Assembly: GCF_026109735.1 (NCBI RefSeq)
Contig: NZ_CP069620.1
Location: forward strand, 1,116,001-1,180,000
DNA from: Salinimicrobium tongyeongense
Lineage (GTDB): Bacteria > Bacteroidota > Bacteroidia > Flavobacteriales > Flavobacteriaceae
Length of the DNA: 64,000 bases
Direction: 5' to 3'
Positions 1,193 through 61,951 of this stretch are shown here, one piece after another (position 1 is the first letter of the stretch; the number at the start of each line of letters is the position of its first letter). A program made the position numbers and the translations under genes. The notes beneath the pieces are model-generated. The model had not been told where the DNA came from and made no database searches. It was given only the letters and a program-made list of their open reading frames with translations.

Positions 1193-1410
1193 AAGGAAGA
1201 AAGACAGGTGGTCAAAAATGGCATTTTTGACTACCTATCTCAGACAGAAAAAACGGATAATTTTACGAGCCCATAAATTAGGTGGTACTTTGCTTTGTTG
1301 AGGCGAAAATCTGGTATTTAGAACCGAAATAGTACCTCCCCGCAAGCTTCGGAAGCATAAAAGTCCCAAAAAAGCTATTCCGGCTTATTATTTCTGAAGA
1401 TTTAGATTTA
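1193..1410. other. intergenic stretch without a gene
   Basis: No credible coding frame. It holds the AAAATGGCATTTT palindrome (1207-1235) and an imperfect inverted pair, GGTGGTACT near 1283 and AGTACCTCC near 1330, plus one CTTCGGAAG at 1347. Confidence 0.6.
1207..1235. repeat. odd palindrome with AAAATGGCATTTT core
   Basis: The 13-bp core lies at 1215-1227. Arms GGTGGTCAAAAATG and CATTTTTGACTACC pair over 14 bp with one mismatch around a single central G. One of at least nine exact copies of AAAATGNCATTTT in the window. Confidence 0.85.
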
Positions 1411-1454
1411 AAAAAGCCTTTTTAGCTGAAAAGCTTCAGCAGAAAAGGCTTTTT
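1411..1454 (-). terminator. long hairpin terminator downstream of the response regulator
   Basis: AAAAAGCCTTTTT (1411-1423) pairs with AGAAAAGGCTTTTT (1441-1454), and inside it GCTGAA pairs with TTCAGC. T-runs on both sides make it a plausible bidirectional terminator for the leftward kinase/regulator operon. Confidence 0.75.
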
Positions 1455-1576
1455 TAGTCTTTAAATTCAGGGGGTTGTACTTTTTCCGAAGAAAAAAATG
1501 CTGTTCTTCCAAAAGTGTCAAATTATATGACGTTTTATGGCTGAGCTCCAGACAAATTTCCGCAGAAAAACACCCA

Positions 1577-1954
1577 TCAGTTTGCCACTTTTTGCCCCAG
1601 GATGGAGTTGATCTTTTCAACCAGGTCATCCATTTCGAAGGGTTTTGCAATAAAATCGTTCGCACCGGCTTCCCTGCATTTTGAACCCGCATCGTGCAGG
1701 GCAGACATCATGAGCACGGGAATATCCCGGGTTTCGGGGTTGTTGCGAAGGCGTGCGCAAACATCGGTGCCGTTAACACCCGAGATGAGCATATCCAGCA
1801 TTACCAGATCAACATTTTCCTGAAGGATGAGTTTTTCAGTCTCTTCGGGCCTTGGCGTAACGATAACGTCAAACTCGTAGAACTCAAGCAAAGTCTTGAG
1901 CATTTCCCCTATTCCGGAGTCATCATCGACCACCAGTATCTTTTTTTTGTTCAT
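1577..1954 (-). CDS. single-domain response regulator
   Basis: 125 residues comprising only a CheY-like receiver domain. Acidic residues D10-D12, phospho-acceptor D54 in LVMLDM, S84 in MMSAL and K104 in AKPFE are all present, so it should be phosphorylated and switch normally. There is no DNA-binding or enzymatic output domain; the signal must pass through protein contact or a phosphorelay. The ATG lies 2 bp after the stop of the histidine kinase, so the two are translated from one message and are almost certainly partners. The target is not visible in the window. Confidence 0.9.
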   Translation of the reverse strand: MNKKKILVVDDDSGIGEMLKTLLEFYEFDVIVTPRPEETEKLILQENVDLVMLDMLISGVNGTDVCARLRNNPETRDIPVLMMSALHDAGSKCREAGANDFIAKPFEMDDLVEKINSILGQKVAN

Positions 1955-1956
1955 TT

Positions 1957-4581
1957 TTATTGGTTTTCAAGAAGCACAAAACTAAAGTCTGATCCTTCCC
2001 CTATTTTACTTTTTACTTCAATATAGCCGTTATGGCGATCAATAATTTCATTGGCAAGATACAAGCCTATCCCGAAACCAGAGTAGGTTTCTTTGCTCTC
2101 CACGCCTATCCTGTAGAACCTTTTAAAGATGTTCTTATGAAACTTAGGGTCAATTCCAATCCCCTTGTCGCGCACGCTCACGGCAACCTTATCTTCTCCC
2201 ACTTTTAGCACGTGAATCTGAATGTGCTGGCTATCTGGCGAATACTTAATGGCGTTGGTAATAAAGTTGATTAGCACCTGCCCTATCCTGTCTTTATCGG
2301 CAAATACCCTGGCCCGGTGAGCATGAAAGACCTCCATTTGGTGCTGCGTGTTGGTGAGCTTAATATCCTGAATGGTTTGCTCTACCATGGCATTAAGGTC
2401 AAAAACTTCTTTTTTAAGTTCGAGCTTGTTCTCTTCAAGCCTTGAAAGGTCTAGTATTTCGGCGATGAGCCTGGTGAGGCGTACAATCTGGTTATCTATG
2501 CGCTCCAGGGAAGGTTTAAGCGGAACATTCCCGGGGATTTCCAGTTTGTATTTGTCGAGCAGGTTGAGCAGCAGCTGAACATAGCCTTTTATGGAAGTCA
2601 CGGGAGTTTTTAGTTCATGGCTTACCATTTTGAGAAAATCTTCTTTGCGCTTTTCTTCTTCTTTTAGCCTTTGGATCTCGGTACTAATCCCAATCCACAT
2701 GGTGATCTTACCGTCTTCCCCTTTCACCGCTTCTTTCCTGCTAAGGTGCCACAGGTATTTGCCCTCCTTATCCCTTAGCCGCAGCTGCATTTCAAAATTC
2801 TTCCCGGTTTTAAGCGAATGTTGCCACTTTTTCTTAAACTCCTGTTCTTCGGAAGGGTGAATACAGCTTTCCCAATTTTGTTCCTGCAGTTCGTGGAAGT
2901 CGAGGCCTATATAATCGAGCCAGTTTTGATTGAAGAAGATAGGTTTCCCGGTGGCATCAGTATTTATGACCTTTCCGGGCATGAGATCGGCCATGAGCTT
3001 AAAGTGGCGCTCCCTCTCCTTCAGAAGGGTTTTTGACTCGACCATTTCAGTCACATCAAGCCCCATGTTGAGGACCCCAATAATTTCACCCTCCTCATTC
3101 CGCAGCGGTTTATAGGTAAAGTTGTAATAGCCGGTTTCCATCCTGCCATTACGCATAAGGTCTACCCGGTCTTCTTTTCCCCAGTAGGTTTCGCCGGTAG
3201 TAAATACATTGTCTAACAGGTCGAAAAAAGGCTGGCCTTCAAGTTCGGGGAGCGCCTCTTGCAGGGGTTTTCCTACCACTTCACGGGTTTTCCCCCAGAG
3301 GTTGATCATGGCATCATTGGCCAGCTCGATGGTCATCCCCCTTCCGGTGTACACCGCTGTTGGCACCGTGGCCTGATCTACAATAGAGCGAATACGGTGT
3401 TCATTTTCACGTATCACCTGTTCTTTAAGATGATCATCGTGTACATCGGTCACCGTACCTATGAGGCCTTCAAATTCACCTTCGGCAGTCCATTTTGGCC
3501 GGCCGCGGTCTACCACCCACCGGTAAGCACCGTTTTTATGGCGCAGCCTGAACCTGGAATAATATTCTTTTCTCAATTCATGAGCCTGGATGAACTGCCG
3601 GTAGATTATTTCCTGATCTTCGGGATGAACTGCCTGCAGCCATCCGGCACCCAGAGATTCTTTCCGGGTTTGGCCTGTGTATTCATACCATTCTTTGTTG
3701 AGGTAATTCCCCTGCCCCTGAGGATTGGTGATCCAGATAATTACCGGTACCGTATCTATGACGTTTCGCAGCTCTTTTTCACTGTTTTCGAGGCTCTGGC
3801 GGTTGAGCACCTTTTCGGTCACATCTATGGCATGCACAAAAATGCCTTCTACCTTTCCATTCACATCCTTAATGGGCTGGTAAATAAAATCGAGGATAAT
3901 GCTTTTCCCGCCGTTTTCGCCTTTAAGGTCGAGGTTTATTTCCTTACCAATAAAACTCTTCCCGCTGTTATAGACCCCATCGAGCATTTTTATAAAACCC
4001 TGGTTCTCTACTTCAGGAAGCACTTCTTTAACAGATTTACCAATGATCTCCCGGTATTCCAAAAGTGCCTGGTACTTGTCGTTTGCCAGTTCAAAAATGT
4101 GATCTTTCCCACGCAGCGTGCAAATTAAACCCGGAGCTTCAGAAAGCACCTCGTTGAGTAATTTGCGGTAATCAATACTTCCCTTGTGAAGTATGTTGAC
4201 TTCAGTAAAACTGAGAAGAAATGCGGTACTCCCTTTAAACTGCGGGAGCCGGTTTGCATTGATCGAAAAACGATGTCTTTTAAGGTTGGGGGAAGAGAGC
4301 ACCACCTGAAAGTCTTTTACTGCTTCCTGTGAAGCCATGAGGGTTTCCAGGAGGTGACAGAGTTGTGCAGGCTCTTTCTTATCTTCAAGTAAAGGAACCA
4401 GATATTCCCCCTCCAGGTTACCGGGAAGCGTTTTAAAAATCCCGTACATCCTTTCAGTTGCAGCCAAAATCCTTCCTTCTTCATTTACCACCACCACGGG
4501 ATCGTGCAGGGAAATGAGAATATTTTTAGCAAATTCAATCTGTTCAGGATCTTCCTTAAAAGGCACCTGGCTACTCTTCAT
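1957..4581 (-). CDS. multi-PAS sensor histidine kinase
   Basis: 874 residues. About five PAS/PAC units occupy residues 20-640, recognisable by repeated endings such as GIFVHAIDVTE, GLIGTVTDVHDD, GVLNMGLDVTE and TMWIGISTEIQ. Then follow the dimerisation/H-box MVSHELKTPVTSIKG (His about 655) and an ATPase with N-box NFITNAIKYSPDS, DKGIGI and GFGIGLYLA. No transmembrane segment is evident, so it is probably cytoplasmic and senses a redox, light or small-ligand cue through PAS domains. It heads an operon with the receiver protein. The start MKSSQVPF is the first ATG before the PAS region. Confidence 0.92.
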   Translation of the reverse strand: MKSSQVPFKEDPEQIEFAKNILISLHDPVVVVNEEGRILAATERMYGIFKTLPGNLEGEYLVPLLEDKKEPAQLCHLLETLMASQEAVKDFQVVLSSPNLKRHRFSINANRLPQFKGSTAFLLSFTEVNILHKGSIDYRKLLNEVLSEAPGLICTLRGKDHIFELANDKYQALLEYREIIGKSVKEVLPEVENQGFIKMLDGVYNSGKSFIGKEINLDLKGENGGKSIILDFIYQPIKDVNGKVEGIFVHAIDVTEKVLNRQSLENSEKELRNVIDTVPVIIWITNPQGQGNYLNKEWYEYTGQTRKESLGAGWLQAVHPEDQEIIYRQFIQAHELRKEYYSRFRLRHKNGAYRWVVDRGRPKWTAEGEFEGLIGTVTDVHDDHLKEQVIRENEHRIRSIVDQATVPTAVYTGRGMTIELANDAMINLWGKTREVVGKPLQEALPELEGQPFFDLLDNVFTTGETYWGKEDRVDLMRNGRMETGYYNFTYKPLRNEEGEIIGVLNMGLDVTEMVESKTLLKERERHFKLMADLMPGKVINTDATGKPIFFNQNWLDYIGLDFHELQEQNWESCIHPSEEQEFKKKWQHSLKTGKNFEMQLRLRDKEGKYLWHLSRKEAVKGEDGKITMWIGISTEIQRLKEEEKRKEDFLKMVSHELKTPVTSIKGYVQLLLNLLDKYKLEIPGNVPLKPSLERIDNQIVRLTRLIAEILDLSRLEENKLELKKEVFDLNAMVEQTIQDIKLTNTQHQMEVFHAHRARVFADKDRIGQVLINFITNAIKYSPDSQHIQIHVLKVGEDKVAVSVRDKGIGIDPKFHKNIFKRFYRIGVESKETYSGFGIGLYLANEIIDRHNGYIEVKSKIGEGSDFSFVLLENQ

Positions 4582-4692
4582 AAAAATGATTTTCGTTAGG
4601 GTAAAAGCTAAAATAAACTTTTCAAATTGCTATTGTACAAAAGAAATCTCAAAGTTTAATAATAAATCAATATTGTCACTTTAAATAGATCA

Positions 4693-4734
4693 AACAGGAG
4701 CTAAGGCGGCGAATTCACCAATAATTCAGCCTAA
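4693..4734 (+). repeat. dispersed 42-bp repeat, copy 1
   Basis: Shares 39 of 42 bases with the reverse complement of 45287-45328. The three differences (4708, 4717, 4732) all fall at third codon positions of the frame reading TGAKAANSPIIQP. In this copy the frame continues open to about 4820. Probably the relic of a coding or mobile sequence. Confidence 0.75.
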
Positions 4735-4770
4735 ATTAAGATGTGTAAGACTGATTCTAAAACTTTCAGT

Positions 4771-4785
4771 AAAAATGCCATTTTT
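4771..4785. repeat. AAAATGCCATTTT palindrome
   Basis: Exact copy of the recurring core (4772-4784) between the divergent kinase and ArsR genes, 37 bp downstream of the 42-bp repeat. Confidence 0.85.
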
Positions 4786-4819
4786 GGACCTGCTTTCGCT
4801 TCAGGTTTTTATATCGTAA

Positions 4820-4829
4820 TATTGCAATA
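4820..4829. promoter_or_regulatory. candidate operator upstream of the ArsR gene
   Basis: TATTGCAATA is a perfect 10-bp palindrome 20 bp before the ATG of an ArsR-type repressor, the usual position for autoregulatory binding. Inference from position and symmetry only. Confidence 0.35.
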
Positions 4830-4849
4830 CAAAAAGCAGAAAAAATAAA

Positions 4850-5185
4850 ATGGGAATAACAAAAACCGACCTCTTCACAGAAGCTCAAAACGAAGTGGCA
4901 CTGGCTGCCAAAGCCCTGGCTCACCCGGCGCGAATTGCCATTATTGAATTCCTGTTAAGATCTAACAGCTGCATCAATGGAGACCTGGTAAATGAACTGG
5001 GGCTGGCACAGGCTACTATAAGTCAGCACCTTCGGGAACTAAAGGAAATCGGGATAATTCAGGGAACCATTGAAGGCACCCGGGTATGTTATTGCATCAA
5101 TCCGCAGCGCTGGAAAGAAATTCAGAATAAATTCAATGTACTCTTTAACAAATTTGAAGATCCTGCATCAAATGAGTGTTGCTAG
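4850..5185 (+). CDS. ArsR-family winged-helix repressor
   Basis: 111 residues. The winged helix runs from KALAHPARIAIIEFL through the recognition helix LGLAQATISQHLRELKEIG to the beta-wing GTRVCYCINP. Cysteines occur at the middle (SCI), in the wing (CYC) and at the C-terminus (SNECC); these could bind a metal or react with thiol oxidants, but the classical ELCVCDL motif of ArsR/SmtB metal sensors is absent. A palindrome lies just upstream. The next gene in the same direction, about 130 bp away, encodes a drug exporter, which is a plausible target, although the gap and lack of a shared promoter leave this open. Confidence 0.88.
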   Translation: MGITKTDLFTEAQNEVALAAKALAHPARIAIIEFLLRSNSCINGDLVNELGLAQATISQHLRELKEIGIIQGTIEGTRVCYCINPQRWKEIQNKFNVLFNKFEDPASNECC

Positions 5186-5316
5186 CCTTTATAGCTTTTG
5201 TAACAATATGTTTTGATTGAAAGGAATTTTCATCCTCCTATAACCTTTTCGGATAATAATTTGTTAAGGCCCTGAATCTAATTGGTTTTAATGCGGATGT
5301 AGCAGAAATTTGCACG

Positions 5317-6543: not shown

Positions 6544-6668
6544 ATATTTTAAAGGAAGAATGGAGCAATTACCGGGAATTTACCAAGAAACCTAGCATCT
6601 ATATTTAAATAGTATGAGTTCTTCGGCTGCACAAAATTTATTTACAAAAAGAATAGGCACAAAACAAA

Positions 6669-6702: not shown

Positions 6703-6705
6703 CTG

Positions 6706-6839: not shown

Positions 6840-6844
6840 AAAAC

Positions 6845-11868: not shown

Positions 11869-12987
11869 TAAAGTAATTTCCTCCAGTAACTGCAAATAAT
11901 CTTCCCTTCTTTTTACAAAATCCAGGTCAGAAATATCGATGATCTTTACGTTCAGCCCCGGCTGCGACTTGATAAAGGACAAATAACTGCGGTTAATATT
12001 TGCCAGGTAATCGGCTTCAATATTTTGTTCGTATTCCCTGCCGCGCTTTTTGATATTTACGAGCAACCTTTCGGTATTTTGATAGAAATACACGTAAAGA
12101 TCGGGCTTCACCAGCTCTTTGTACATGATGTGAAACAGCTTCTGGTAAAGCGAATATTCGTCTTCGTGCAGGGTGATCTTTGCAAAAATGAGGGATTTAA
12201 AAACATCATAATCGGAAACCACGAAATCTTTAAACAGGTCGTATTGCGCAAGATCGTCTGAAAGCTGCTGATACCTGTCGGCCAAAAATGACATTTCCAG
12301 CGGGAAGGCGTAACGCGATTTGTCTTCGTAAAACTTCGGAAGGAATGCGTTGTCTTTGAACCTTTCCAAAATCAGTTTTGCATTGAAATCCTGGGAGACC
12401 ATAGTGGCAAAACTGGTTTTTCCTGCCCCGATGTTCCCTTCAACCGCGATGTAATTAAAATTGGAAAAAGAAAATTTCTTCGGAAGCTGAAGTTCTTCAG
12501 AAATAAGCTTTAAATCCGATTTTTCTAAGGTGTCAAAAAGGGCATTTACAGACAGCTTTTTTAGGGGATGTTTTACTTCCGAAGCAATATCGGCCAGCGG
12601 CGCCAGCACAAAATCGCGCTGGTGCATTTGCGGGTGCGGCACCGTAAGCTCTTCCGATGTGATGATTTCATCTCCAAAAAGTAAAATATCTAGATCTATG
12701 GGCCGGTTTTGGTATCCGCTGCCAGGTTTTCTCTCCCGCCCCAGCTTTTTTTCAATTTCGAGCAGCTGTTTTAAGATTTTGCGGGGCTTAAAACGGGTTT
12801 CTACGGCAATACAGGCGTTGAGAAAAGCCCCGCCCTCAAAACCCATTGCCGGCGTCTCATACACTTTTGAAACCGCCCTTACCTCTCCTGTTTTTTTCTG
12901 AATTTCTTCAACGGCCTGCTGTAAAAAAGCAAATCTGGCACCTTCATTGCTTCCAAGAGCTATAAATACTGTTTTTAAAGGGTTCAA
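11863..12987 (-). CDS. folK: FolK / deoxynucleoside kinase fusion
   Basis: 374 residues in two parts. Residues 1-160 are HPPK: IALGSNEG at the start, then RKPGSGYQNRPIDLDILLFGDEII and VPHPQMHQRDFVLAPLADI, the substrate and Mg sites. It pyrophosphorylates 6-hydroxymethyl-dihydropterin in folate synthesis. Residues 175-374 are a deoxynucleoside kinase: P-loop VEGNIGAGKTSF, the ERF motif after it and KRGREYEQNI as lid, phosphorylating deoxyadenosine or deoxyguanosine for salvage. The fusion is, from memory, common in Bacteroidetes. The stop codon is supplied by the downstream heptad array, so changes in the array could alter the C-terminus. Confidence 0.93.
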   Translation of the reverse strand: MNPLKTVFIALGSNEGARFAFLQQAVEEIQKKTGEVRAVSKVYETPAMGFEGGAFLNACIAVETRFKPRKILKQLLEIEKKLGRERKPGSGYQNRPIDLDILLFGDEIITSEELTVPHPQMHQRDFVLAPLADIASEVKHPLKKLSVNALFDTLEKSDLKLISEELQLPKKFSFSNFNYIAVEGNIGAGKTSFATMVSQDFNAKLILERFKDNAFLPKFYEDKSRYAFPLEMSFLADRYQQLSDDLAQYDLFKDFVVSDYDVFKSLIFAKITLHEDEYSLYQKLFHIMYKELVKPDLYVYFYQNTERLLVNIKKRGREYEQNIEADYLANINRSYLSFIKSQPGLNVKIIDISDLDFVKRREDYLQLLEEITLQ

Positions 12988-23556: not shown

Positions 23557-25605
23557 ATGGACTTCAAAAATGCCATTTTAGAAGGTATTCCGGCAAACCT
23601 GCCTCCTGCACAAGATTATGATTACAATATAAACCACGCTCCAAAACGCAAGGACATTCTCTCTGCTGAAGAAAAAAAACTCACCCTGCGCAATGCGCTC
23701 AGGTATTTTGACAGCAAACATCACGAAGAGCTGCTACCCGAATTCCGCAAGGAACTTGACACCTACGGCAGGATCTATATGTACCGCCTGCGCCCCAATT
23801 ACGCAATGTACGCCCGGCCAGTTTCGGAATATCCCGGAAAGTGTGAGCAGGCAAAGGCCATAATGCTCATGATACAGAACAACCTGGACCCTAAAGTGGC
23901 CCAACATCCGCATGAATTGATTACCTATGGCGGAAATGGGGCTGTTTTTCAGAATTGGGCACAGTACCGGCTGGTGATGAAATATTTAGCCGAAATGACC
24001 GAAGAGCAAACGCTGGTCATGAATTCAGGTCACCCGCTGGGACTCTTCCCGTCACACAAAGATGCACCACGCGTAGTGGTCACCAATGGGATGATGATCC
24101 CCAATTACTCTAAACAGGACGACTGGGAAAAATTCAATGCCCTTGGCGTAACCCAGTACGGACAAATGACTGCGGGAAGCTACATGTATATTGGGCCGCA
24201 GGGAATTGTTCACGGCACTACGATCACGGTGCTGAATGCCTTGCGTAAAATAGCTAAAAACTCCCCCTCCATTCCAGGGAGGGAGCCGGGGGAAGGGTCT
24301 GCTCTGTTTGTTACTTCAGGACTGGGCGGCATGAGCGGCGCACAACCCAAAGCCGGGAACATCGCCGGCTGCATTACGGTTTGTGCCGAAGTGAATCCAA
24401 AAGCAGTAGAAACCCGCCACTCCCAGGGCTGGGTAGATGAAGTTGTTGAAGATTTGGATGTGCTGGCACAAAAAGTTTCTGCAGCAAAAAAGGAAGGCAA
24501 AACCATCTCTTTTGCTTACCTCGGAAACGTGGTAGATGTATGGGAAAAATTCGATGAAGAAAACATTCATATAGACCTGGGCAGTGACCAAACTTCCCTG
24601 CACAACCCCTGGGCAGGAGGCTATTATCCTGCCGGGTTAAGCTTTTCGGAAGCAAACGGGATGATGAGCCACGATCCGGAAGCCTTTAAAGAAAAAGTAC
24701 GTGAGAGTTTGCGAAGGCAAACCGAAGCCATTAACCGCCACACCAAAAAAGGCACTTACTTTTTCGACTATGGAAACGCCTTTTTACTGGAGGCTTCAAG
24801 GGCAGGTGCTAAAATCTACAAAGATGAGGCAGGTAATTTTGTGAGCGGAACTTCAGCAGGAGAAGACAAAGAATTTGCATATCCAAGTTATGTGCAGGAC
24901 ATCATGGGGCCCATGTGCTTTGATTATGGTTTTGGCCCCTTCCGCTGGGTATGTGCTTCAGGAAAAAAAGAAGACCTGGAGAAAACCGACCAGATTGCAC
25001 GGGAAGTGCTTCAGAAATTAAAGGAAAAAGCTCCCGAAGAGATTCAGCAGCAAATGCAGGACAACATCAGGTGGATCGAAGGTGCCAGGGCCAACAAACT
25101 GGTAGTGGGATCACAGGCCCGGATTCTCTATGCCGATGCTGAAGGTCGCATAGAAATTGCAAGAGCCTTCAACAAAGCTATCGAAAAGGGGCAAATTGGA
25201 CCGTTAATTTTGGGGCGTGACCATCACGATGTTTCAGGCACCGATTCTCCTTACCGCGAAACCTCCAATATTTACGACGGTTCCCGCTATACAGCTGATA
25301 TGGCCATCCAGAATGTTATTGGCGACAGCTTTAGAGGTGCCACCTGGGTGAGCATCCATAACGGAGGCGGTGTAGGCTGGGGTGAAGTGATCAACGGCGG
25401 ATTCGGTATGGTTCTTGAGGGTAATAAAGAGTCGGAGAGGCGGCTTAACTCAATGTTATTCTGGGATGTAAACAACGGGATCGCCCGTAGATCATGGGCC
25501 CGAAACGAAGGCGCTGTGTTCGCCATAAAACGCGCGATGAAAGCAGAACCCCGCTTAAAAGTAACCATACCCAACCTTGTGGACGACCGCTTATTGGACA
25601 CTTAA
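23557..25605 (+). CDS. hutU: urocanate hydratase, long form, with in-frame insertion
   Basis: 682 residues, nearer the eukaryotic-type long enzyme (about 676) than the usual bacterial 555. It hydrates urocanate to imidazolone propionate in histidine breakdown using tightly bound NAD. Typical motifs are present: YGGNGAVFQNWAQYRL, MNSGHPLGLFPSHKDAPRVV, FVTSGLGGMSGAQPKA, the active-site DYGFGPFRWVCASG (Cys), and HNGGGVGWGEVINGGFGMVL. Residues 234-248 (KNSPSIPGREPGEGS) are encoded by a GC-rich hairpin and interrupt a conserved stretch between LNALRKI and FVTSGLGG. No hutH, hutI or hutG gene is nearby. The palindrome AAAATGCCATTTT covers codons 4-8. Confidence 0.95.
   Translation: MDFKNAILEGIPANLPPAQDYDYNINHAPKRKDILSAEEKKLTLRNALRYFDSKHHEELLPEFRKELDTYGRIYMYRLRPNYAMYARPVSEYPGKCEQAKAIMLMIQNNLDPKVAQHPHELITYGGNGAVFQNWAQYRLVMKYLAEMTEEQTLVMNSGHPLGLFPSHKDAPRVVVTNGMMIPNYSKQDDWEKFNALGVTQYGQMTAGSYMYIGPQGIVHGTTITVLNALRKIAKNSPSIPGREPGEGSALFVTSGLGGMSGAQPKAGNIAGCITVCAEVNPKAVETRHSQGWVDEVVEDLDVLAQKVSAAKKEGKTISFAYLGNVVDVWEKFDEENIHIDLGSDQTSLHNPWAGGYYPAGLSFSEANGMMSHDPEAFKEKVRESLRRQTEAINRHTKKGTYFFDYGNAFLLEASRAGAKIYKDEAGNFVSGTSAGEDKEFAYPSYVQDIMGPMCFDYGFGPFRWVCASGKKEDLEKTDQIAREVLQKLKEKAPEEIQQQMQDNIRWIEGARANKLVVGSQARILYADAEGRIEIARAFNKAIEKGQIGPLILGRDHHDVSGTDSPYRETSNIYDGSRYTADMAIQNVIGDSFRGATWVSIHNGGGVGWGEVINGGFGMVLEGNKESERRLNSMLFWDVNNGIARRSWARNEGAVFAIKRAMKAEPRLKVTIPNLVDDRLLDT
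23567..23579. repeat. AAAATGCCATTTT palindrome in hutU codons 4-8
   Basis: Exact copy of the recurring core, here within the extreme 5' end of a coding region. Confidence 0.8.
24256..24299 (+). repeat. GC-rich hairpin inserted in frame in hutU
   Basis: CTCCCCCTCC, then CAGGGAGGGAG, then CCGGGGGAAGGG. CCCTCC and GGAGGG pair. The composition differs sharply from the flanks and the translated peptide interrupts conserved urocanase sequence. Confidence 0.5.
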
Positions 25606-36709: not shown

Positions 36710-36768
36710 ACCATAAAAAAACAGGGGTTCCAAAAATGGCATTTTTGGAACCCCTGTTTTTTTATGGT
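36710..36768. terminator. perfect 59-bp palindrome with AAAATGGCATTTT core; bidirectional terminator
   Basis: Arms 36710-36738 and 36740-36768 are perfectly complementary for 29 bp around one G. From the outside in the arm reads ACCATAAAAAAACAGGGG, then TTCCAAAAATG. The T-runs after the GC-rich part fit an intrinsic terminator working both ways between two convergent genes. The centre is an exact copy of the recurring 13-bp motif. Confidence 0.92.
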
Positions 36769-48715: not shown

Positions 48716-48728
48716 AAAATGCCATTTT
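48716..48728. repeat. AAAATGCCATTTT palindrome, upstream of the DUF983 gene
   Basis: Exact copy. Overlapped on its left by TTCGGAA, and a CTTCCGAAG follows at 48759. Confidence 0.85.
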
Positions 48729-49205: not shown

Positions 49206-50260
49206 GCTCTTTTATACCATTTTTTGGTAAACCTGGAGATATCAACTTCGGGGTCAAGGGCTTTTCCTTCTTCAATAAAGTCCAGAAGTTCTTCGGAAAC
49301 TGAAGGAGCTATGAGAATCCCGCGACTCCCAAAACCATTGCAGGTGTACAAATTCTTGTGCTCTGGGTGCTGCCCCAGCATTGGCCTGCGGTCTATGGTA
49401 GAAGGCCGCAAGCCTGCTACCTGGCCTACCACCTCAAAATCGGTTTTTATGAGGTCCTTCAGTTTTTCAACAAGTTCCTCCCGGGCGGCCTGTGTAGGTT
49501 CGGGGGTTTTATCGGTATTGCTATAGGTTGCCCCCACGGCGTAGTGGTCTCCCCCTGCCGGAAATATAAAGATAGACGATTTTACACCCACTTCCAGGTC
49601 GAGGTTCGGGGCTTTTATGATGATGTATTCCCCTTTATTCCCCCTTAACGGAAGATAGCTGAAAAACGGATTTTGCTGAAGCCCGAAACCTTCGCAAAAA
49701 ATGACATTTTTGGCAGCTGTGTTTTTATACTGAACGCCCGAACCTGTTAATTGCAGTGCATTATGATCAAAGGTATCCTGTAACAGCCAGCCTTTCTCCT
49801 GAAGGTGTTCAGAATAGGATTCCAGAAGGTAACGCGGATCAATTCGGGAGGTTTTCAATACTTTTCCGAAGGAAAATTTGCCGGGAATATGCTTATTCAC
49901 CGAAGCGACAAGTTTTGTATCGAGAAAAGGGGCGATTTTAGGCTTATCGGCCGCGGCAAACCAGTTGTTCTGCTCTTCTACAGACGAGAACCGCCTGTAG
50001 ACCTCAAGAGGGCCTAAAAAGGTCTTTTGGAGATGCTTTTCCATCTCCTTATAGAAATCGTAAGCTTTTGCGAGTTGTACATCGGCTTTCCAGGCAAGGG
50101 TAAAGCGTTTCAGGATCACCGGGTTCATGAAGCCGCCGGCCACTTTTGAGGCTTCCTGGCTGCCATCATCAAAAACAACAAAGGATTTTCCGGCTTTTTC
50201 GAGCCTGTATGCAAGGCAGGTTCCGCTAAGGCCTGCCCCAACAATAATATAGTCTTTCAT
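49202..50260 (-). CDS. DAO-family FAD-dependent oxidoreductase
   Basis: 352 residues. Dinucleotide motif YIIVGAGLSGTCLAYRLEKAGK at the start; NPVILKRFTLAWKAD and the C-terminal GLRPSTIDRRPMLGQHPEHK, YTCNGFGSRGILIAPSVSEELL are as in D-amino-acid oxidase or MnmC-like proteins. Electrons pass to O2 or a carrier; the substrate is unknown, although the C-terminus resembles the FAD domain of MnmC (tRNA wobble uridine modification). The stop overlaps that of the convergent DUF983 gene. AAAATGACATTTT at 49698 lies in the coding region. Confidence 0.88.
   Translation of the reverse strand: MKDYIIVGAGLSGTCLAYRLEKAGKSFVVFDDGSQEASKVAGGFMNPVILKRFTLAWKADVQLAKAYDFYKEMEKHLQKTFLGPLEVYRRFSSVEEQNNWFAAADKPKIAPFLDTKLVASVNKHIPGKFSFGKVLKTSRIDPRYLLESYSEHLQEKGWLLQDTFDHNALQLTGSGVQYKNTAAKNVIFCEGFGLQQNPFFSYLPLRGNKGEYIIIKAPNLDLEVGVKSSIFIFPAGGDHYAVGATYSNTDKTPEPTQAAREELVEKLKDLIKTDFEVVGQVAGLRPSTIDRRPMLGQHPEHKNLYTCNGFGSRGILIAPSVSEELLDFIEEGKALDPEVDISRFTKKWYKRA
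49698..49710. repeat. AAAATGACATTTT palindrome in the DAO gene
   Basis: Exact copy of the recurring core with central A; flanks CA and TTGG keep partial symmetry. Confidence 0.8.
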
Positions 50261-55006: not shown

Positions 55007-56158
55007 TTAAATTTCGTTTTTCCTTTTCGTTTTATACCACCTCTCAGGGATGATTTGATTACAGGCGTCAAGGTAATCTCCTTGCGTGCAAGGTAATAAC
55101 GTATGCCTTTTAAGTTTATTATTTGCCGGGGAAATAAATGGAATTTCTATCCACCAGCGACCACTGACCGGACTTTTATAAAAAACCAGGACCTCATCGT
55201 CTATTGGCACCTGATACCTAATAAACTCTTTTTTAGAGGAAATAGTATTTTCATTTTTCCTAAAATTCACTCCCTCAACAAAATACCATAGTATTTGAGC
55301 CACCAACATATTGGAAGCCGGGAAATTGAGGCGCGATGTATATTCAAAAACCCCAAATGAAGTCACCTTGTCGCTAATACCTGCATATCTCGCCAAAGCA
55401 CAAATTTCCTTTCCATCAAAACCATTGGGCGATTTAAGACGGTAATTACCAAGTGCACCGGCACTAACCGCATTCAAATCAAGCCCCACAAGGTTGGCAT
55501 CGCGCATTACCGGCTCAATAGCAGTAATATCAGCCGATACTTCCCCCAGCCTTATGGCATCAAAAAACAGCCGCTCCATCAACTCGATCTCGTCCTGCGA
55601 GTTGAAATAAGTCTGGTACCCCAAATTTGAATAATTGAAAAGATTGTACGGCTTTGTCACCACCATCTTTCCCACATACGAATGGTTGCTTATTGGCTTA
55701 TCGGCATCACCAAGATCAAATTTAGCGTCTATATTCACCAGGTTCACCATCTGCTCCACCCCGTCATAAGCCCTGTACTGCGCATAAAGTAAATCTTCGC
55801 CACCTCCAAGAAGCACCGGAATAATGCCATTTTTGAGACAGTAGTTCACCACCGATTGTACCGCAAAAAAAGTATCTTCTTCAGAATTCCCTTTTTGGAT
55901 ATCCCCCAAATCGGCCATGGGCAAATGCCAGTTACCGGCATATAAATTATAGAACTCCCTCCTTATATTATCAAAATCAAACGGCTCTCCTGTAGGTTCC
56001 TCATCCAAACGATCTTCAAGGATCCCAAAAAAGGCAATTTTAACGCCCTCTAGATCGGGAAAGGCCCTATTCTCAAGATGAATGCGCAGGGACGCCCCAA
56101 GGCGGTTACCTTGAGCTGCCAATTCCTCTTTCACCGGCGTAAGAAAATCGAATTCCAT
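55007..56158 (-). CDS. arginase-fold protein with altered metal ligands
   Basis: 383 residues. The overall ureohydrolase pattern is present: the loop ILLGGGEDLL-type stretch near residue 120, VNIDAKFDLG near 142, and GLDLNAVSAGALG near 225. The Mn-binding His in GGDH is replaced (GGED), the ligand H of DAHxD is K (IDAKFD) and the SxDxD triad has changed to LDLNAVS. So it has the fold but probably not the enzyme activity of arginase or formimidoylglutamase. It lies between topA (4 bp away) and gldK on the same strand, as I recall in other Flavobacteria, which suggests a gliding or secretion role. Confidence 0.82.
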   Translation of the reverse strand: MEFDFLTPVKEELAAQGNRLGASLRIHLENRAFPDLEGVKIAFFGILEDRLDEEPTGEPFDFDNIRREFYNLYAGNWHLPMADLGDIQKGNSEEDTFFAVQSVVNYCLKNGIIPVLLGGGEDLLYAQYRAYDGVEQMVNLVNIDAKFDLGDADKPISNHSYVGKMVVTKPYNLFNYSNLGYQTYFNSQDEIELMERLFFDAIRLGEVSADITAIEPVMRDANLVGLDLNAVSAGALGNYRLKSPNGFDGKEICALARYAGISDKVTSFGVFEYTSRLNFPASNMLVAQILWYFVEGVNFRKNENTISSKKEFIRYQVPIDDEVLVFYKSPVSGRWWIEIPFISPANNKLKRHTLLPCTQGDYLDACNQIIPERWYKTKRKNEI

Positions 56159-56161: not shown

Positions 56162-58705
56162 TTACTCCTTTTTGGAAACAGTTTTTTTACGGGTGGTTTT
56201 CTTGGTCCCGGTCTTCTTTGAAGCGGCAGTTTTTTTAGCGGCCTTTTTCTTGGGAGCTTTTTTCTCGAGTATGTCCTTCACCTCTTCAAGACTCAGTTTT
56301 GCAGCATCTACAGTCTTTGGCAATTCAATTTTTGTCTTGCCTTTAATAATATTTGAACGTCCCCACCTGGCTTTCTCTACCCTGATTCCTTCCTCTTCCC
56401 AGTTATGGATCACCTTCTCGCGCTCTTTCCTTATCTTATCTTCAATAAGCTCTTCAATATCTTCTGCGGAAAGATTATCAAAATCATACTTTTTGTTCAC
56501 GTTTATGAACATGTCGTTCCATTTGAGGTAAGGCCCAAAACGCCCCACCCCTTTTTGAACCGGAAGATCTTTGTATTCATAGATAGGCGCATCGGCTTTT
56601 TCTTTTGCCTTGATCAACTCGAGCGCACGATCCATGGTTACGGCTATAGGATCTTCCCCTTTTTCAAGCGAAACGAATTTTTTCCCGTAGCGCACGTAAG
56701 GGCCAAAACGCCCGTTGTTCACTTCCACTTTTTCCCCTTCATATTCCCCTAGTTCCTTCGGAAGTTTAAACAGCTCCATCGCCTCTTCAAAAGTGACTGA
56801 ATCAAGGGTTTGATCTGGAGAAAGGCTGGCAAATTTTGGCTTCTCCTCATCCTCTACAGATCCCATCTGCACCATGGGTCCAAATTTCCCGAGCCGCACA
56901 CTCACCGGCTTTCCGGTAACAGGATCTTCCCCTAAAATTCTTTCGCCAACTTCCCTTTCCGCATTTTGGGCAACATCGAGCACATGAGGGTGAAAATCAC
57001 TGTAGAAATCTTTCATCATCTTGGTCCACTCCTCATTTCCTTCAGCAATATCATCAAAATCCTGCTCTACCTTGGCGGTAAAGTTGTAATCGAGGATGCT
57101 TGAGAAATGGTTGACAAGAAAATCGTTCACCACCATCCCAACATCGGTTGGCACAAGTTTGCCCTTATCACTACCTACAGTTTCCGTAAGTTTCTTTTCG
57201 CTGATTTTTTCAGCTTTTAATGTAAGCTGCACATAATCACGCTCCACCCCGTCAACCGATCCTTTTTCGATATAATTCCGGTTTTGAATTGTAGAAATGG
57301 TTGGCGCGTAGGTAGACGGGCGTCCTATTCCCAGCTCTTCGAGTTTCTTTACCAAAGAAGCTTCAGTATAGCGGTAAGGGGGCCGTGTAAATCTCTCGGT
57401 GGCCGTGATATGATTATTTTCAAGTTTTTCGTTCACCCGTAGTGCCGGCAACATGCCTTCCTGTTCCTGTAATTCTTCATCCTCTTCGTCGCGGCCTTCC
57501 AGGTAAACTTTCAGGAAACCCTCAAATTTTAAAACCTCCCCGTTGGCAGTGAACTGTTTATCGTGCTTATCGGCTTCAATTTTCACATTGGTCCTTTCCA
57601 GTTCGGCTTCGCTCATTTGGGAAGCTATGGCACGTTTCCAGATCAATTCATACAGGCGCTGTTCATCGCGATCGGCCTGCACGCTGTGGGCCGCAAAATT
57701 TGTTGGCCTAATGGCCTCGTGAGCTTCCTGCGCCCCTTTTGTTTTTCCTTTGAATTGACGTGTCTTGCTGTACTTTTCACCGTAGGCGTCTAAAATCTCT
57801 TTTTTGGCACCTTTTCTTGCGTCATCAGAAAGGTTGACGCTATCGGTTCTCATATAAGTAATATGCCCCGCCTCATAGAGACGCTGCGCCATGGTCATGG
57901 TCTTACTTACTGAAAAATATAATTTTCGGGCAGCTTCCTGCTGAAGTGTTGAGGTTGTAAAGGGTGGTGCCGGGGACTTTTTAGCCGGTTTGGTCGTAAG
58001 ATCGGCCACCTTGAAATTCGCACCCAGGTTATCTGAAAGGAACTGTTCGGCTTCAGCCTTGGTATCAAAATTTTTAGGAAGTTTTGCTTTGAAAGATTTA
58101 CCTTCCTCATTGGTAAATTCGGCATCAATCCTGAAGGAAGCTTCAGGAATAAAACCCTGAATTTCGCGCTCTCTCTCCACAATCAACCTCACCGACACAC
58201 TTTGAACCCTTCCTGCCGAAAGGCCTCCTTTTACTTTTCTCCAAAGCACAGGAGAAAGCTCATAGCCCACAAGCCTGTCCAACACACGCCGTGCCTGCTG
58301 GGCATTTACCAGGTTGTAATTGATCCCTCTTGGGTTTTCGATTGCTCTGAGAATAGCCGATTTTGTGATCTCGTGAAAAACGATCCTTTTGGTTTTGTTC
58401 TTATCAAGATCCAGCTCTTCGGCCAGGTGCCACGCAATAGCTTCCCCCTCCCGGTCTTCATCACTCGCCAGCCAAACCATCTCGGCGCTCTTTGCAAGGC
58501 TCTTCAGTTTTTTAACAACGTCTTTCTTGTCTTTAGACACTATATATTTAGGAGTAAAATCGCCCTCGGTATCTACGCCCAGCTCTTTTGCTGGCAAGTC
58601 GGCAATATGACCAAAACTGGAAGCAACAGTGTAATCTTTGCCGAGAAATTTCTCAATAGTTTTAGCCTTTGCGGGGGACTCTACAATCACTAAATTCTTT
58701 GCCAT
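56162..58705 (-). CDS. topA: DNA topoisomerase I
   Basis: 847 residues. Toprim domain at the start (NLVIVESPAKAKTIEKFLG, DEDREGEAIAWHL), active-site Tyr near 284 in GHITYMRTDSVNL, and the gate domains. The C-terminus has several repeats with VRLGKFGPMVQMG, NGRFGPYVRYGKKF and VGRFGPYLKWNDMF and no four-cysteine zinc fingers. It ends in a lysine/alanine tail (KKAPKKKAAKKTAASKK), probably DNA binding. It relaxes negative supercoils. Two 5' spacer bases separate its stop from the next gene. Confidence 0.98.
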   Translation of the reverse strand: MAKNLVIVESPAKAKTIEKFLGKDYTVASSFGHIADLPAKELGVDTEGDFTPKYIVSKDKKDVVKKLKSLAKSAEMVWLASDEDREGEAIAWHLAEELDLDKNKTKRIVFHEITKSAILRAIENPRGINYNLVNAQQARRVLDRLVGYELSPVLWRKVKGGLSAGRVQSVSVRLIVEREREIQGFIPEASFRIDAEFTNEEGKSFKAKLPKNFDTKAEAEQFLSDNLGANFKVADLTTKPAKKSPAPPFTTSTLQQEAARKLYFSVSKTMTMAQRLYEAGHITYMRTDSVNLSDDARKGAKKEILDAYGEKYSKTRQFKGKTKGAQEAHEAIRPTNFAAHSVQADRDEQRLYELIWKRAIASQMSEAELERTNVKIEADKHDKQFTANGEVLKFEGFLKVYLEGRDEEDEELQEQEGMLPALRVNEKLENNHITATERFTRPPYRYTEASLVKKLEELGIGRPSTYAPTISTIQNRNYIEKGSVDGVERDYVQLTLKAEKISEKKLTETVGSDKGKLVPTDVGMVVNDFLVNHFSSILDYNFTAKVEQDFDDIAEGNEEWTKMMKDFYSDFHPHVLDVAQNAEREVGERILGEDPVTGKPVSVRLGKFGPMVQMGSVEDEEKPKFASLSPDQTLDSVTFEEAMELFKLPKELGEYEGEKVEVNNGRFGPYVRYGKKFVSLEKGEDPIAVTMDRALELIKAKEKADAPIYEYKDLPVQKGVGRFGPYLKWNDMFINVNKKYDFDNLSAEDIEELIEDKIRKEREKVIHNWEEEGIRVEKARWGRSNIIKGKTKIELPKTVDAAKLSLEEVKDILEKKAPKKKAAKKTAASKKTGTKKTTRKKTVSKKE

Positions 58706-58920
58706 AGTATCATTTTTTGTTTTGCAAAAGTATGGGAATTTTTAAATATGGCTGCAAATCACAAATTTTTATCCGCTCAACCCTGCCCCTAAACAATAAT
58801 TTGGCAATTAACTTAAAATGCACAACCCGCCTTCCCTGTAATTTATTCTGAATTTTATATGAAGAATTTATACTTCAGTCATATTATATAGGGATCCTTA
58901 GAAACTGAAAAATACCTTTC

Positions 58921-58933
58921 AAAATGCCATTTT
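58921..58933. repeat. AAAATGCCATTTT palindrome upstream of miaB
   Basis: Exact copy, flanked by TTC and TGAA so that the dyad extends to about 20 bp with one gap. Confidence 0.85.
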
Positions 58934-59008
58934 TGAAGCCTCATAACCTGGCTCTCTCTTTTGCCCCCACTCCTTCCGAAGAAGCCTTTCAGAATTTCCT
59001 CCTGTCAC

Positions 59009-59040
59009 TTTGTCACATACCAACTAAAACTGTATCTTTG
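59009..59040 (+). promoter_or_regulatory. promoter of miaB
   Basis: TTTG (59009-59012), 20 bp, TATCTTTG (59033-59040). An exact consensus match 33 bp before ATG 59074; it decides the start of miaB. Confidence 0.75.
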
Positions 59041-59073
59041 CCCGTTCAATTGCCTAAGGCATTTTTTGGAATT

Positions 59074-60519
59074 ATGGAGAAGATTATAGACGAAAAACAG
59101 CAGGGAAATACACTGGTAATGGAGCCTCAAAAGGGCAATGGGAAAAAGCTGATGATTGAGAGCTACGGCTGCCAGATGAACTTTAGCGACAGTGAGATCG
59201 TGGCTTCAATACTTGCAAAAGAAGGTTTTGACACCACACAAAGCCTCGAGGAGGCAGACCTGGTGCTTATCAACACCTGTTCAATTAGAGATAAAGCAGA
59301 ACAAACGGTACGCAAGAGACTTGAAAAATACAACGCGGTAAAAAGGATCAACCCCGGGATGAAAGTGGGGGTGCTTGGCTGTATGGCCGAACGCCTTAAA
59401 GCAAAGTTCCTGGAAGAGGAAAAAATTGTAGACCTGGTGGTAGGCCCCGATGCCTACAAAGACCTGCCAAACCTCATCAATGAAGTGGAAGAAGGCCGCA
59501 ATGCGGTGAACGTGATACTTTCCAAAGATGAGACCTACGGTGATATTTCTCCCGTGCGCCTGCAAAGCAACGGCGTTTCAGCCTTTGTTTCTATCACGCG
59601 GGGCTGCGACAATATGTGTACTTTCTGCGTGGTACCTTTTACCCGCGGAAGAGAGCGAAGCCGCGACCCGCAAAGTATTCTGGAAGAAGTGAATGACCTG
59701 GCACAAAAAGGCTTTAAGGAAATCACCCTTTTGGGACAAAATGTTGACAGCTACCTGTGGTATGGCGGCGGACTCAAAAAAGATTTTAAAAATGCTTCGG
59801 AAATGCAAAAGGCCACCGCTACAAATTTTGCTGCGCTTTTGAGGATGGTGACCGAAGCCCATCCAAAAATGAGGATAAGGTTCTCTACTTCAAATCCGCA
59901 GGATATGACACTCGATGTGATCGAGGCCATGGCGAAGTACCCGAATATTTGTAAATATATCCACCTGCCTGTACAAAGTGGAAGCGACAGGATTCTTAAA
60001 GCCATGAACCGTCTGCACACCCGCGAAGAATATTTTGAGTTGATTGACAACATCAGGAAACTAATGCCCGATTGCGCCATTTCGCAGGATATGATCACCG
60101 GATTCCCTACGGAAACCGAAGAAGACCACCAGGACACCCTGTCTCTAATGGAATATGTGAAGTACGATTTTGGCTTCATGTTCGCCTATTCTGAAAGACC
60201 CGGAACCATGGCTGCCAGGAAACTGGAAGACGATGTTCCCGAAGAAGTTAAAAAAAGAAGGCTCACAGAAATTGTGAACCTGCAACAAAAACACAGCCAC
60301 TACAGGACCAGCCAGTTTGTTGGCAAGACGGTAGAGGTGTTGATCGAAAAAGAATCCAAGAAATCTGATGCTCACTGGAGCGGCAGGACCACTCAAAACA
60401 CCGTTGCCGTATTTCCGAAGGAAGATTATAAGGTTGGGGATTTTGTGAACGTAAAGATCAACGACTGCACCAGCGCCACTTTAATAGGAGAAGCGGTTGG
60501 ATATAGCGAGAATAATTAG
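59074..60519 (+). CDS. miaB: tRNA-i6A37 methylthiotransferase MiaB
   Basis: 481 residues from ATG 59074 ([18 protein letters not shown]). The UPF0004 domain has three Cys ligands ([31 protein letters not shown]); the radical-SAM core has [20 protein letters not shown] near residue 180 with CxxxCxxC; a C-terminal TRAM domain follows ([15 protein letters not shown]). It converts i6A37 to ms2i6A in tRNAs. Two iron-sulfur clusters are implied. Upstream ATG 58924 is rejected because of the promoter at 59009. Confidence 0.96.
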
Positions 60520-60522
60520 TGC

Positions 60523-60542
60523 GCAGTGATCAGCAGGCAGTG
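60523..60542. repeat. heptad array after the miaB stop
   Basis: CAGTGAT, CAGCAGG, CAGTGG starting about 4 bp after the TAG of miaB. Confidence 0.55.
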
Positions 60543-60681
60543 GTTTGCTAAGGTTTAAGGAAAATATCAGGTCTACATTTGTTCATCCTTTCTTGAGCAG
60601 TAGATTTACATTTAATATTAAAAGGATTTCCCGCACCCCTATTGGAATTTGGTGCTTGTTTATTGGAATTTGATTAGAAAT

Positions 60682-61938
60682 ATGGAAAGTATTCAGGCAA
60701 TAAAACAGCGTTTCGGCATTCTGGGAAATGACCAGAAGCTGAACAGGGCAGTAGAAAAAGCCATGCAGGTGGCGCCAACAGATATTTCGGTGCTGGTTAC
60801 CGGGGAAAGCGGGGTGGGAAAGGAAAGCATCCCAAAGATCATCCATGCGCTCTCCCACCGCAAACACGGAAAATACATCGCCGTGAACTGCGGTGCCATT
60901 CCCGAAGGTACTATTGACAGTGAACTCTTTGGGCACGAAAAAGGTGCTTTTACCGGTGCCACCCAAACCCGAAGCGGATATTTTGAAGTGGCCGATGGCG
61001 GCACCATTTTCCTCGATGAAGTTGGTGAACTGCCACTCACCACGCAGGTACGGCTTCTGCGTGTGCTCGAAAATGGCGAATTTATCAAGGTAGGCTCTTC
61101 AAAAGTGCAAAAGACCAACGTGCGCATTGTAGCTGCCACCAACCTCAATATGGCCGAAGCCATTAAAAAGGAAAAATTCAGGGAAGACCTTTACTACAGG
61201 CTTAGCACCGTGGAGATCTACCTGCCACCGCTGCGCGATCGCAAGGAAGACATCCACCTGCTCTTCAGGAAATTTGCAGCCGATTTTGCCCTGAAATACA
61301 AAATGCCCACCATTCGCCTTGAAGACGATGCCATAAGCCTCCTGCAAAAATATTCCTGGAATGGAAACGTGAGGCAGCTAAGGAACCTCGCAGAGCAGAT
61401 TTCAGTTTTAGAACAGGAAAGAAGCATAGACGCCGCAAAACTCAAGGAATACCTTCCCGGTTATGGCAGTAACCTGCCGGCGGTTATCGAAGAGAAGAAG
61501 AAAGAAAACGACTTCAGCAATGAACGGGAAATTCTTTACAAAGTGCTTTTTGACATGAAAAGCGACCTTAACGACCTTAAAAAGCTCACCTTGGAGCTTA
61601 TGGAAAATGATGGCCACAAGAATGTAAGGGAAGAGAACGAAAGCCTCATCAACAAGATCTACGGGAATAATGAGGAAGAAGATGTTATTCCTGAAGAAAT
61701 AACCGATGAACAACTGGAAGTACTTCAAATTCCGCAGCAAAACCCTTCAGATAAACAGGATAAATATTACTTTGCTGAAGAAATTGAGGAAGAAGAGACG
61801 CTTTCCCTCCAGGACAAGGAGCTGGAACTCATTAAGAAATCTCTGGAGCGCCACAACGGAAAACGCAAGGCGGCCGCCGAAGAGCTTGGGATAAGCGAGC
61901 GCACCCTGTACAGAAAGATCAAACAATACGACCTTTAA
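60682..61938 (+). CDS. sigma-54-dependent transcriptional activator without sensor domain
   Basis: 418 residues from ATG 60682; a frame extension to 60649 adds no conserved sequence. The AAA+ domain fills residues 5-240: Walker A VTGESGVGKES, the sigma-54 contact loop GAFTGAT near residue 88, Walker B GTIFLDEVGELP and LYYRLSTVEIYLPPLRDR. A long acidic linker (NEEEDVIPEEITDEQLEVLQ) leads to a Fis-type HTH (NGKRKAAAEELGISERTLYRKIKQYDL). There is no receiver or ligand domain, so activity must be controlled otherwise, perhaps by abundance. It precedes lptE by 29 bp and so may drive envelope or heat-shock genes; a sigma-54-like site is present before groES. Confidence 0.94.
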   Translation: MESIQAIKQRFGILGNDQKLNRAVEKAMQVAPTDISVLVTGESGVGKESIPKIIHALSHRKHGKYIAVNCGAIPEGTIDSELFGHEKGAFTGATQTRSGYFEVADGGTIFLDEVGELPLTTQVRLLRVLENGEFIKVGSSKVQKTNVRIVAATNLNMAEAIKKEKFREDLYYRLSTVEIYLPPLRDRKEDIHLLFRKFAADFALKYKMPTIRLEDDAISLLQKYSWNGNVRQLRNLAEQISVLEQERSIDAAKLKEYLPGYGSNLPAVIEEKKKENDFSNEREILYKVLFDMKSDLNDLKKLTLELMENDGHKNVREENESLINKIYGNNEEEDVIPEEITDEQLEVLQIPQQNPSDKQDKYYFAEEIEEEETLSLQDKELELIKKSLERHNGKRKAAAEELGISERTLYRKIKQYDL

Positions 61939-61951
61939 AAAATGTCATTTT
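61939..61951. repeat. AAAATGTCATTTT palindrome between the activator gene and lptE
   Basis: Exact copy immediately after the activator stop; flanks A and TTGAC. Confidence 0.85.

Follow-up and report, generated by a model that had tools for sequence, protein, structure and literature searches.

The 64,000-nucleotide stretch of the Salinimicrobium tongyeongense genome analysed here (NZ_CP069620.1, positions 1,116,001 to 1,180,000, or C1:1116001-1180000; hereafter the window) contains nine exact copies of a 13-bp odd palindrome, AAAATGNCATTTT, which is probably a DNA uptake sequence, that is, a species-recognition tag for natural transformation. This reading is drawn from sequence comparisons, and a DNA-uptake signal was not among the candidates named in the preliminary description of the window, which had pointed out the palindrome. 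All nine positions given there proved correct, and the statement that nine copies are far beyond chance was upheld, since in 100 dinucleotide shuffles the number of copies averaged 0.05 and never exceeded one. In the whole genome, a single contig of 3,509,958 bases, the exact copies numbered 424 and those of a reversed-pattern control only one. The same description had proposed this genome-wide count as the check on which the motif might fail, and the count is not near expectation.

The motif was characterised in a sample of 844 kb, consisting of 39 evenly spaced 20-kb stretches and the window. The 98 exact copies in this sample indicated that the 13-mer forms the centre of a longer motif, about 39 bp in length and with two-fold symmetry, AAAA..RGSTBYCAAAAATG-N-CATTTTTGRVASCY..TTTT, with a free central base at which G or C is favoured and a mirror-image arm opposite RGSTBYCAAAAATG. 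Symmetric conservation reaches about 19-20 bases either side of the centre and includes an outer A-tract at -19 to -16. A symmetric matrix, with order-4 Markov sequence as background, was both trained on and applied to this 844-kb sample, and its site count is accordingly an estimate: 362 places reached at least 14 bits, shifted duplicates included, corresponding to 340 distinct sites, whereas 16 were expected in order-4 Markov sequence. Scaled from the sample, the net number of sites per genome is about 1,350. Core copies that were exact or carried one or two mismatches numbered 98, 127, and 280, respectively, against about 1, 19, and 187 expected; the excess of near-misses is graded, falls with distance from the consensus, and is consistent with an origin by point mutation. 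Furthermore, strong half-sites had a strong partner mainly at a single spacing (112 at offset 0, the next value being 5). The genome counts and the symmetric motif bear out the view that the palindrome is a symmetric, genome-wide and probably dimer-read motif, and we infer that a symmetric dimer binds it. The first 100 exact copies listed were all dispersed, except for 13 motif copies repeated in tandem every 25 bp at C1:428490-428802, an array that accounts for about 3% of the exact copies. One gene runs into this array, and phoU/pst-like genes, named by eye, lie on the other strand.

Enrichment was restricted to a single genus. Among 60 genomes, including that of S. tongyeongense, only congeners were enriched, and the 48 outside the genus had at most 8 exact copies each. 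In a set of 397 genomes from the family, none of the 393 belonging to other genera had more than 20, the next highest count being 14. The genome with 20 exact cores (control, 4) belongs to another genus of the family (G251) and may represent a weak relative of this system. Ten of the twelve Salinimicrobium genomes, our own included, were clearly enriched, with extended-motif counts (control in parentheses) of 701 (23), 706 (19), 454 (13), 427 (15), 394 (16), 375 (12), 360 (12), 357 (13), 311 (13), and 128 (10); the other two congeners, designated G004 and G001, had 45 (22) and 4 (6), respectively. In ten Salinimicrobium genomes (all but G001 and G009), the density of matrix sites per Mb was 417 in our own genome, 289 in G003, 193-272 in six others, 170 in G002, and 47 in G004. 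Judged by GldM (89% identity), the nearest named relative of our genome is Salinimicrobium nanhaiense. A tree of GldM grouped the ten enriched genomes in one clade (99/97), outside which G004 and G001 branched in an order that the tree left unresolved. A first 64-kb sample from Christiangramia/Gramella contained 4 sites of at least 14 bits against 0.2 expected, three of them in one locus, L052. Later samples from four genomes of other genera (181, 81, 121, and 61 kb), from which L052 was left out, contained 1, 1, 3, and 1 sites against 0.7, 0.9, 0.9, and 0.4 expected, and the presence of the motif in sister genera was rejected on these near-expectation counts.

Among the genomes compared, the motif was common only in those in which comEC, dprA, a helix-hairpin-helix (HhH) gene, and a DUF5689 gene were apparently intact. 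In all ten enriched genomes, comEC was open and full length, dprA was present (in G009 as a shorter frame of 339 aa near a contig end), a ComEA-like HhH gene of about 297 aa was open with frames of 292-308 aa, and DUF5689 was present. In G004, comEC was found in pieces, its remnant lying syntenically between NlpC/P60 and thioredoxin-like genes; dprA was split between reading frames, and the ComEA-like gene had four in-frame stops. In G001, which is 74% complete, comEC was not found with a protein query, and neither dprA nor the HhH gene of about 297 aa was found. DUF5689 was absent from both G004 and G001. Judging from these gene remains, located on its contigs C11, C7, and C8, G004 appears to be a natural competence-loss lineage. 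In Salegentibacter sp. 24 (G428), comEC, dprA, DUF5689, and the HhH gene of about 297 aa were not found, and a 21.5-kb locus lacked the motif. DUF5689 was searched last, the family having been chosen from Riemerella genetics (PMC8459023). As reported there, transposon mutants of Riemerella anatipestifer showed that ComEC, DprA, ComF, RecA, and an HhH protein are essential for transformation, and that the process equally requires a DUF1343 protein, a DUF5689 surface protein, and a CarboxypepD_reg outer-membrane protein (PMC8459023). Like Riemerella, our own genome contains comEC, dprA, a ComEA-like HhH gene, and a CarboxypepD_reg-DUF5689 pair.

The product of the S. tongyeongense DUF5689 gene has 462 aa and a lipoprotein-like start; the gene lies 3 bp downstream of a gene for a 932-aa CarboxypepD_reg protein, the same adjacency as in Riemerella; by analogy, the 932-aa protein is presumed to be an outer-membrane barrel. 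In NCBIfam, the DUF5689 protein was near the M949_1556 lipoproteins (198 bits, under the 475-bit cut-off) and matched the choice-of-anchor J domain over the cut-off. Among 14 homologues, the identity of the C-terminal domain was 0.79 within the motif clade and 0.26 to the four other-genus genomes, whereas that of the N-terminal domain was 0.72 and 0.44, respectively. Columns that were invariant within the clade, with a residue not seen outside it, numbered 47 of 188 in the C-terminal domain versus 19 of 231 in the N-terminal domain, and the within-minus-between difference in identity was reached in none of 10,000 column permutations. The C-terminal domain has been remodelled in the motif clade, as would be expected if its specificity had changed and had then come under constraint. 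A sequence search with the receptor candidate against solved structures gave no match. Its predicted structure (predicted local distance difference test, 75.7; predicted template modelling score, 0.58) matched a cleaved-adhesin/MAM-like beta-sandwich over one domain (best, 3m1h; E = 1.2e-6), and such a match of a model neither proves nor excludes DNA binding. The DUF5689 lipoprotein is a candidate for the surface DNA-binding receptor of the motif.

In the mechanism that we propose, the surface lipoprotein with its DUF5689 and choice-of-anchor J domains would bind motif-bearing double-stranded DNA together with the presumed outer-membrane barrel. The bound DNA would be pulled into the periplasm and retained there by the ComEA-like HhH protein; ComEC would transfer one strand inward, and DprA and RecA would recombine it. 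Point mutation combined with biased uptake would raise the number of motifs, within and between genes, since better copies would cause their fragments to be imported and recombined more often, and convergent gene ends would have recruited some copies as terminator hairpins. The C-terminal domain of the receptor may have changed its specificity at the root of one Salinimicrobium clade and may then have driven the motif to well over 1,000 copies. With some reserve we lean towards this account in full, according to which the palindromic, dimer-read tag of about 39 bp would be the first uptake sequence of the Bacteroidota and its receptor a DUF5689/choice-of-anchor J protein paired with a CarboxypepD_reg protein.

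Conservation of individual sites was compared among congeners. At coding sites the identity of the 19-bp core exceeded that of its own flank in all eight congeners, from 0.737 versus 0.730 up to 0.925 versus 0.757, and AT-rich control 19-mers exceeded their own flank by 0.007-0.027. At noncoding sites the gain of core over flank was approximately nil in G008 and negative in G010. Full sites were kept in 42 and lost in 38 coding comparisons, and kept in 9 and lost in 16 noncoding comparisons, the set consisting of 34 sites, two of which were shifted duplicates. When four sites of G004 were checked for orthology, one had strong sites as its aligned counterparts in several congeners, and a second aligned with weak sites; both sit in conserved coding sequence.

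Several observations weigh against the uptake reading. There are just two motif-poor congeners, one of them the incomplete G001, and the comparison of ten of ten with none of two gives a Fisher p of about 0.015 (1/66, calculated by hand), uncorrected for phylogeny. Since G004 and G001 lie outside the clade, the motif may be later than the split and the gene losses coincidental. G001 may simply be remote, because it is only 74% complete, has a comEC family trace below the cut-off (19 bits), and also lacks an unrelated word, TTTCTTCGGAA, described below. Four genomes of other genera (G429-G432) have comEC, dprA, and DUF5689, and their samples showed no excess of the motif; competence alone is therefore insufficient, and specificity is needed. 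The C-terminal domain of the receptor candidate diverges faster among the other genera too (0.45 versus 0.54). The core identity was below that of the control 19-mers in three of the eight congeners (G005, G010, and G002), so that orthologous retention inside the clade gives only modest support for maintenance, and the sites of G004 count only weakly as relics of the motif. Uptake sequences described so far are not known to be palindromes. Finally, the type IV pilus ATPase family PF00437 was over its cut-off in two of 17 genomes (G003 and G431), our own not being one of them. We treat this departure from the type IV pilus machinery of classical uptake as a difference of variant and not of kind, because Riemerella, as described in PMC8459023, uses proteins unlike the well-known machinery.

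The position of the copies bears on the alternatives. Genes were called with a simple script, not a published caller, and positions were classified for 357 of the 362 places and 336 of the 340 distinct sites, the remainder being at stretch ends. On this basis, 200 of the 340 distinct sites were inside genes. For exact copies the corresponding number was 37 of 98, called genes making up 87% of the DNA; with 61 copies in about 110 kb outside genes and 37 in about 734 kb inside, the density was approximately 11 times higher outside. In the window, six of the nine exact copies (1215, 4772, 36733, 48716, 58921, and 61939) lie outside called genes, the same number as originally noted. Exact intergenic copies numbered 16 in 15 kb between convergent genes, 24 and 9 in 30 and 25 kb between tandem genes, and 8 in 24 kb between divergent genes, four more at stretch ends being left out of these classes. 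This extragenic density would suit intrinsic terminators or RNA hairpins with a conserved apex, as would the pairing of the arms at convergent gene ends: for the 31 distinct convergent intergenic sites, the observed (expected) pairing at 10, 12, 13, and 15 bases from the centre was 0.61 (0.35), 0.58 (0.36), 0.52 (0.35), and 0.61 (0.31), and the copy at 36733 is a long perfect inverted repeat. At the 200 coding sites, however, the corresponding values were 0.31 (0.31), 0.28 (0.27), 0.34 (0.32), and 0.26 (0.27), with no excess, although these sites retain all positions of the motif, outer A-tracts included. The 16 divergent intergenic sites carry the motif too, and terminators do not require a single primary sequence. 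The coding copies refute a terminator or hairpin as the general role, and as an explanation of the motif it is very improbable; it is true for a subset, because convergent intergenic copies double as terminator-like hairpins. The suggestion of a terminator component is correct to the same extent, and so is the remark that symmetric flanks stay paired, which applies to the 31 convergent intergenic copies and fails for the 200 coding ones. Because the coding copies keep the whole motif without pairing beyond chance, the motif is read as duplex DNA, and the simplest reading is a symmetric recognition site on duplex DNA with terminator use secondary. One codon phase was used by 114 of 209 coding places, giving peptides such as KNAIF.

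A symmetric site on duplex DNA could also be that of a genus-specific, abundant, dimeric nucleoid or chromosome-architecture protein, selected chromosome-wide. The two-fold symmetry, the one preferred spacing, and the partial retention of strong sites at orthologous places agree with such a protein. When the GC-skew minimum near 1.64 Mb was taken as the origin, site density in the 40 sampled stretches showed no relation to the distance from it (Spearman 0.005, p = 0.97). This result cuts both ways: independence of that distance is compatible with chromosome-wide selection, whereas the origin-terminus pattern of an organising signal is absent, and an origin-terminus signal was rejected accordingly. 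Moreover, the motif is poor or absent exactly in the two congeners without working competence genes, the 37 coding exact copies stand where single-site selection should be costly, and copy counts differ about fivefold inside the ten-genome clade. We regard a nucleoid protein as unlikely. Odd palindromes in which the central base is free are typical sites of dimeric regulators, and Fur-like regulators have a 7-1-7 geometry, so the shape alone would fit a very large regulon of one transcription factor. The estimated sites are nevertheless well over 1,000, more than half of them in genes, and the density of exact intergenic copies is lower between divergent genes than between convergent or tandem ones, which leaves this explanation very little probability. 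A nucleoid protein, a global regulator, or a chromosome-organising signal had been put forward at the outset; as the main role none is supported, because the motif has no relation to GC skew, lies mostly in genes, occurs in one genus only, and is poor or absent exactly where competence genes are broken or not found. The large number of copies and the single 25-bp-period array would be expected of a dispersed mobile palindrome, such as a repetitive extragenic palindrome (REP) or a miniature inverted-repeat transposable element (MITE), or of decayed transposon ends. Strong shared flanks outside the motif were not seen, however; the central base and the outer positions vary in a graded manner, and the copies are not confined to extragenic DNA. 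Six of the nine exact window sites could be aligned to one or more congeners (48716 and 58921 to a single one) and differed by point changes or small gaps with no missing block, three sites remaining unaligned. A simple mobile repeat had been disfavoured from the start, apparently rightly, and it is the least credible of these explanations.

The sites are not uniformly distributed along the chromosome. In four of the 40 stretches the density was 1.0 site per 10 kb or less (mean, 4.2), and all four had a G+C content of at most 0.414. One motif-poor stretch holds the elongation factor G (EF-G) gene and, from open reading frames (ORFs) of fitting size, is inferred to include a ribosomal-protein cluster. 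A low-G+C region of about 140 kb (C1:552-692 kb; L180-L185 and L016) had 7 sites in 120 kb, compared with about 51 expected at the mean density; it carries efflux, TonB receptor, and GH65 genes and looks like acquired DNA. Even (sub-Poisson) spacing of the sites was considered and dropped, the mean of 9.4 and variance of 7.5 in 34 bins, from which five poor stretches and the window were left out, not being convincing.

Self-DNA tags are known from two proteobacterial families, both with type IV pili. The Salinimicrobium motif resembles the DNA uptake sequence (DUS)/ComP system of Neisseriaceae in having dispersed copies in and between genes, in being lineage-restricted and competence-linked, and in its reuse in terminators. 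It differs in that the motif itself is a 39-bp palindrome, that the host belongs to the phylum Bacteroidota, and that no type IV pilus ATPase exceeded the cut-off in the S. tongyeongense genome. In Pasteurellaceae, the uptake signal sequence (USS) lacks symmetry and has its A/T tracts on one side, whereas the present motif is two-fold symmetric. Among palindromes with other functions, matS of Enterobacteria is likewise a 13-bp odd palindrome; it is bound by a MatP dimer and its copies are few and confined to the terminus, whereas the Salinimicrobium motif is spread chromosome-wide, and confinement to one chromosomal domain was not observed in the 40 stretches. HIP1 of cyanobacteria is a highly iterated, lineage-specific 8-bp even palindrome linked to methylation; the present motif is also iterated and lineage-specific but is long and degenerate and co-occurs with competence genes. 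The USS is reported to have a conserved core within a larger 29 bp consensus and an over-representation that drops as the mismatch load rises (PMC1939737), and in both respects the Salinimicrobium motif is similar. Within the Bacteroidota, Riemerella columbina prefers its own DNA, and candidate short words such as AAAAATAAAA are listed in the same report with the remark that their role needs study (PMC7965970). Neither an uptake motif nor a receptor is established for Riemerella in that account (PMC7965970), whereas Salinimicrobium has an abundant motif. Our searches of the open-licence PubMed Central literature returned no description of this motif and no established Bacteroidota uptake sequence. 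If true, a tag in this phylum would have arisen independently, with another geometry and probably another machine. The outer-membrane step of transformation in Flavobacteriia (PMC8459023) would become a defined ligand-receptor problem. The origin and decay of uptake sequences, long argued, would be directly testable in Salinimicrobium, because the genus offers a young one-genus spread, a graded genome series, and one congener with decayed competence genes.

The copies in the window are listed below with the bit scores of the full-length matrix (listing threshold, 14 bits). Twelve one-mismatch copies exist in the window; the ten listed in the preliminary description are among them, one being displaced by a base (29790, not 29791), and those at 12285 and 62326 had been missed.

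1215..1227, exact core, between convergent genes, 32.7 bits
4772..4784, exact core, between divergent genes, 22.7 bits
8363..8375, one mismatch, inside mutS, 22.5 bits
12285..12297, one mismatch, inside a gene, 14.8 bits
13665..13677, one mismatch, inside a gene, 23.6 bits
16059..16071, one mismatch, inside a gene, 15.6 bits
23567..23579, exact core, 5' end of the urocanase ORF, 24.0 bits
29790..29802, one mismatch, inside a gene, 28.2 bits
36720..36758, long perfect inverted repeat with exact core at 36733-36745, convergent genes either side, 40.9 bits
41121..41133, one mismatch, between genes, 21.3 bits
42770..42782, one mismatch, between convergent genes, 24.1 bits
44773..44785, exact core, inside a 123-aa ORF, full site below 14 bits
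45174..45186, one mismatch, between genes, 21.8 bits
48716..48728, exact core, between divergent genes, 21.2 bits
49698..49710, exact core, inside an FAD oxidoreductase-like gene, at least 18 bits in 7 of 8 congeners
55821..55833, one mismatch, inside a gene, 20.7 bits
57792..57804, degenerate copy of full length, within the gene for topoisomerase I, about 26 bits, as in 5 of 8 congeners
58921..58933, exact core, upstream of a radical-SAM (UPF0004/TRAM) gene by the script's gene call, 28.7 bits
61939..61951, exact core, immediately 3' of a stop codon, at least 22 bits in 7 of 7 aligning congeners
62326..62338, one mismatch, inside a gene, 25.5 bits

The copy at 36733 is reused as a terminator-like hairpin. 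The site at 23567 aligned without gaps in two of three aligned congeners, the third having a 2-base gap further downstream, and the site at 48716 aligned in G003 with point changes and a 1-base gap. For the FAD oxidoreductase-like gene at 49698, the best NCBIfam matches were under their cut-offs.

A second, asymmetric word, TTTCTTCGGAA, was also over-represented, with 341 copies in the genome versus 13 of the control. Its form TTTCTNCGGAA occurs in the window at 1494, 1568, 12475, 29394, 29992, 31222, 32334, 38546, and 44293, and was mostly found in genes (100 of 127 sampled). Counts of TTTCTTCGGAA versus control were 163 versus 14 in G004, 245 versus 9 in G022, which belongs to another genus, and 3 versus 9 in G001. 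G004 has therefore not lost over-represented words generally, whereas G001 has lost, or never had, both the palindrome and TTTCTTCGGAA; the second word shows no link to comEC. Further dyads enriched in G004 and Christiangramia were rejected as mostly local tandem or coding repeats. At L232:14367-14918 of Christiangramia, a local array of ACCTGTGAGGT inverted repeats was observed, with the repeats about 133 bp apart.

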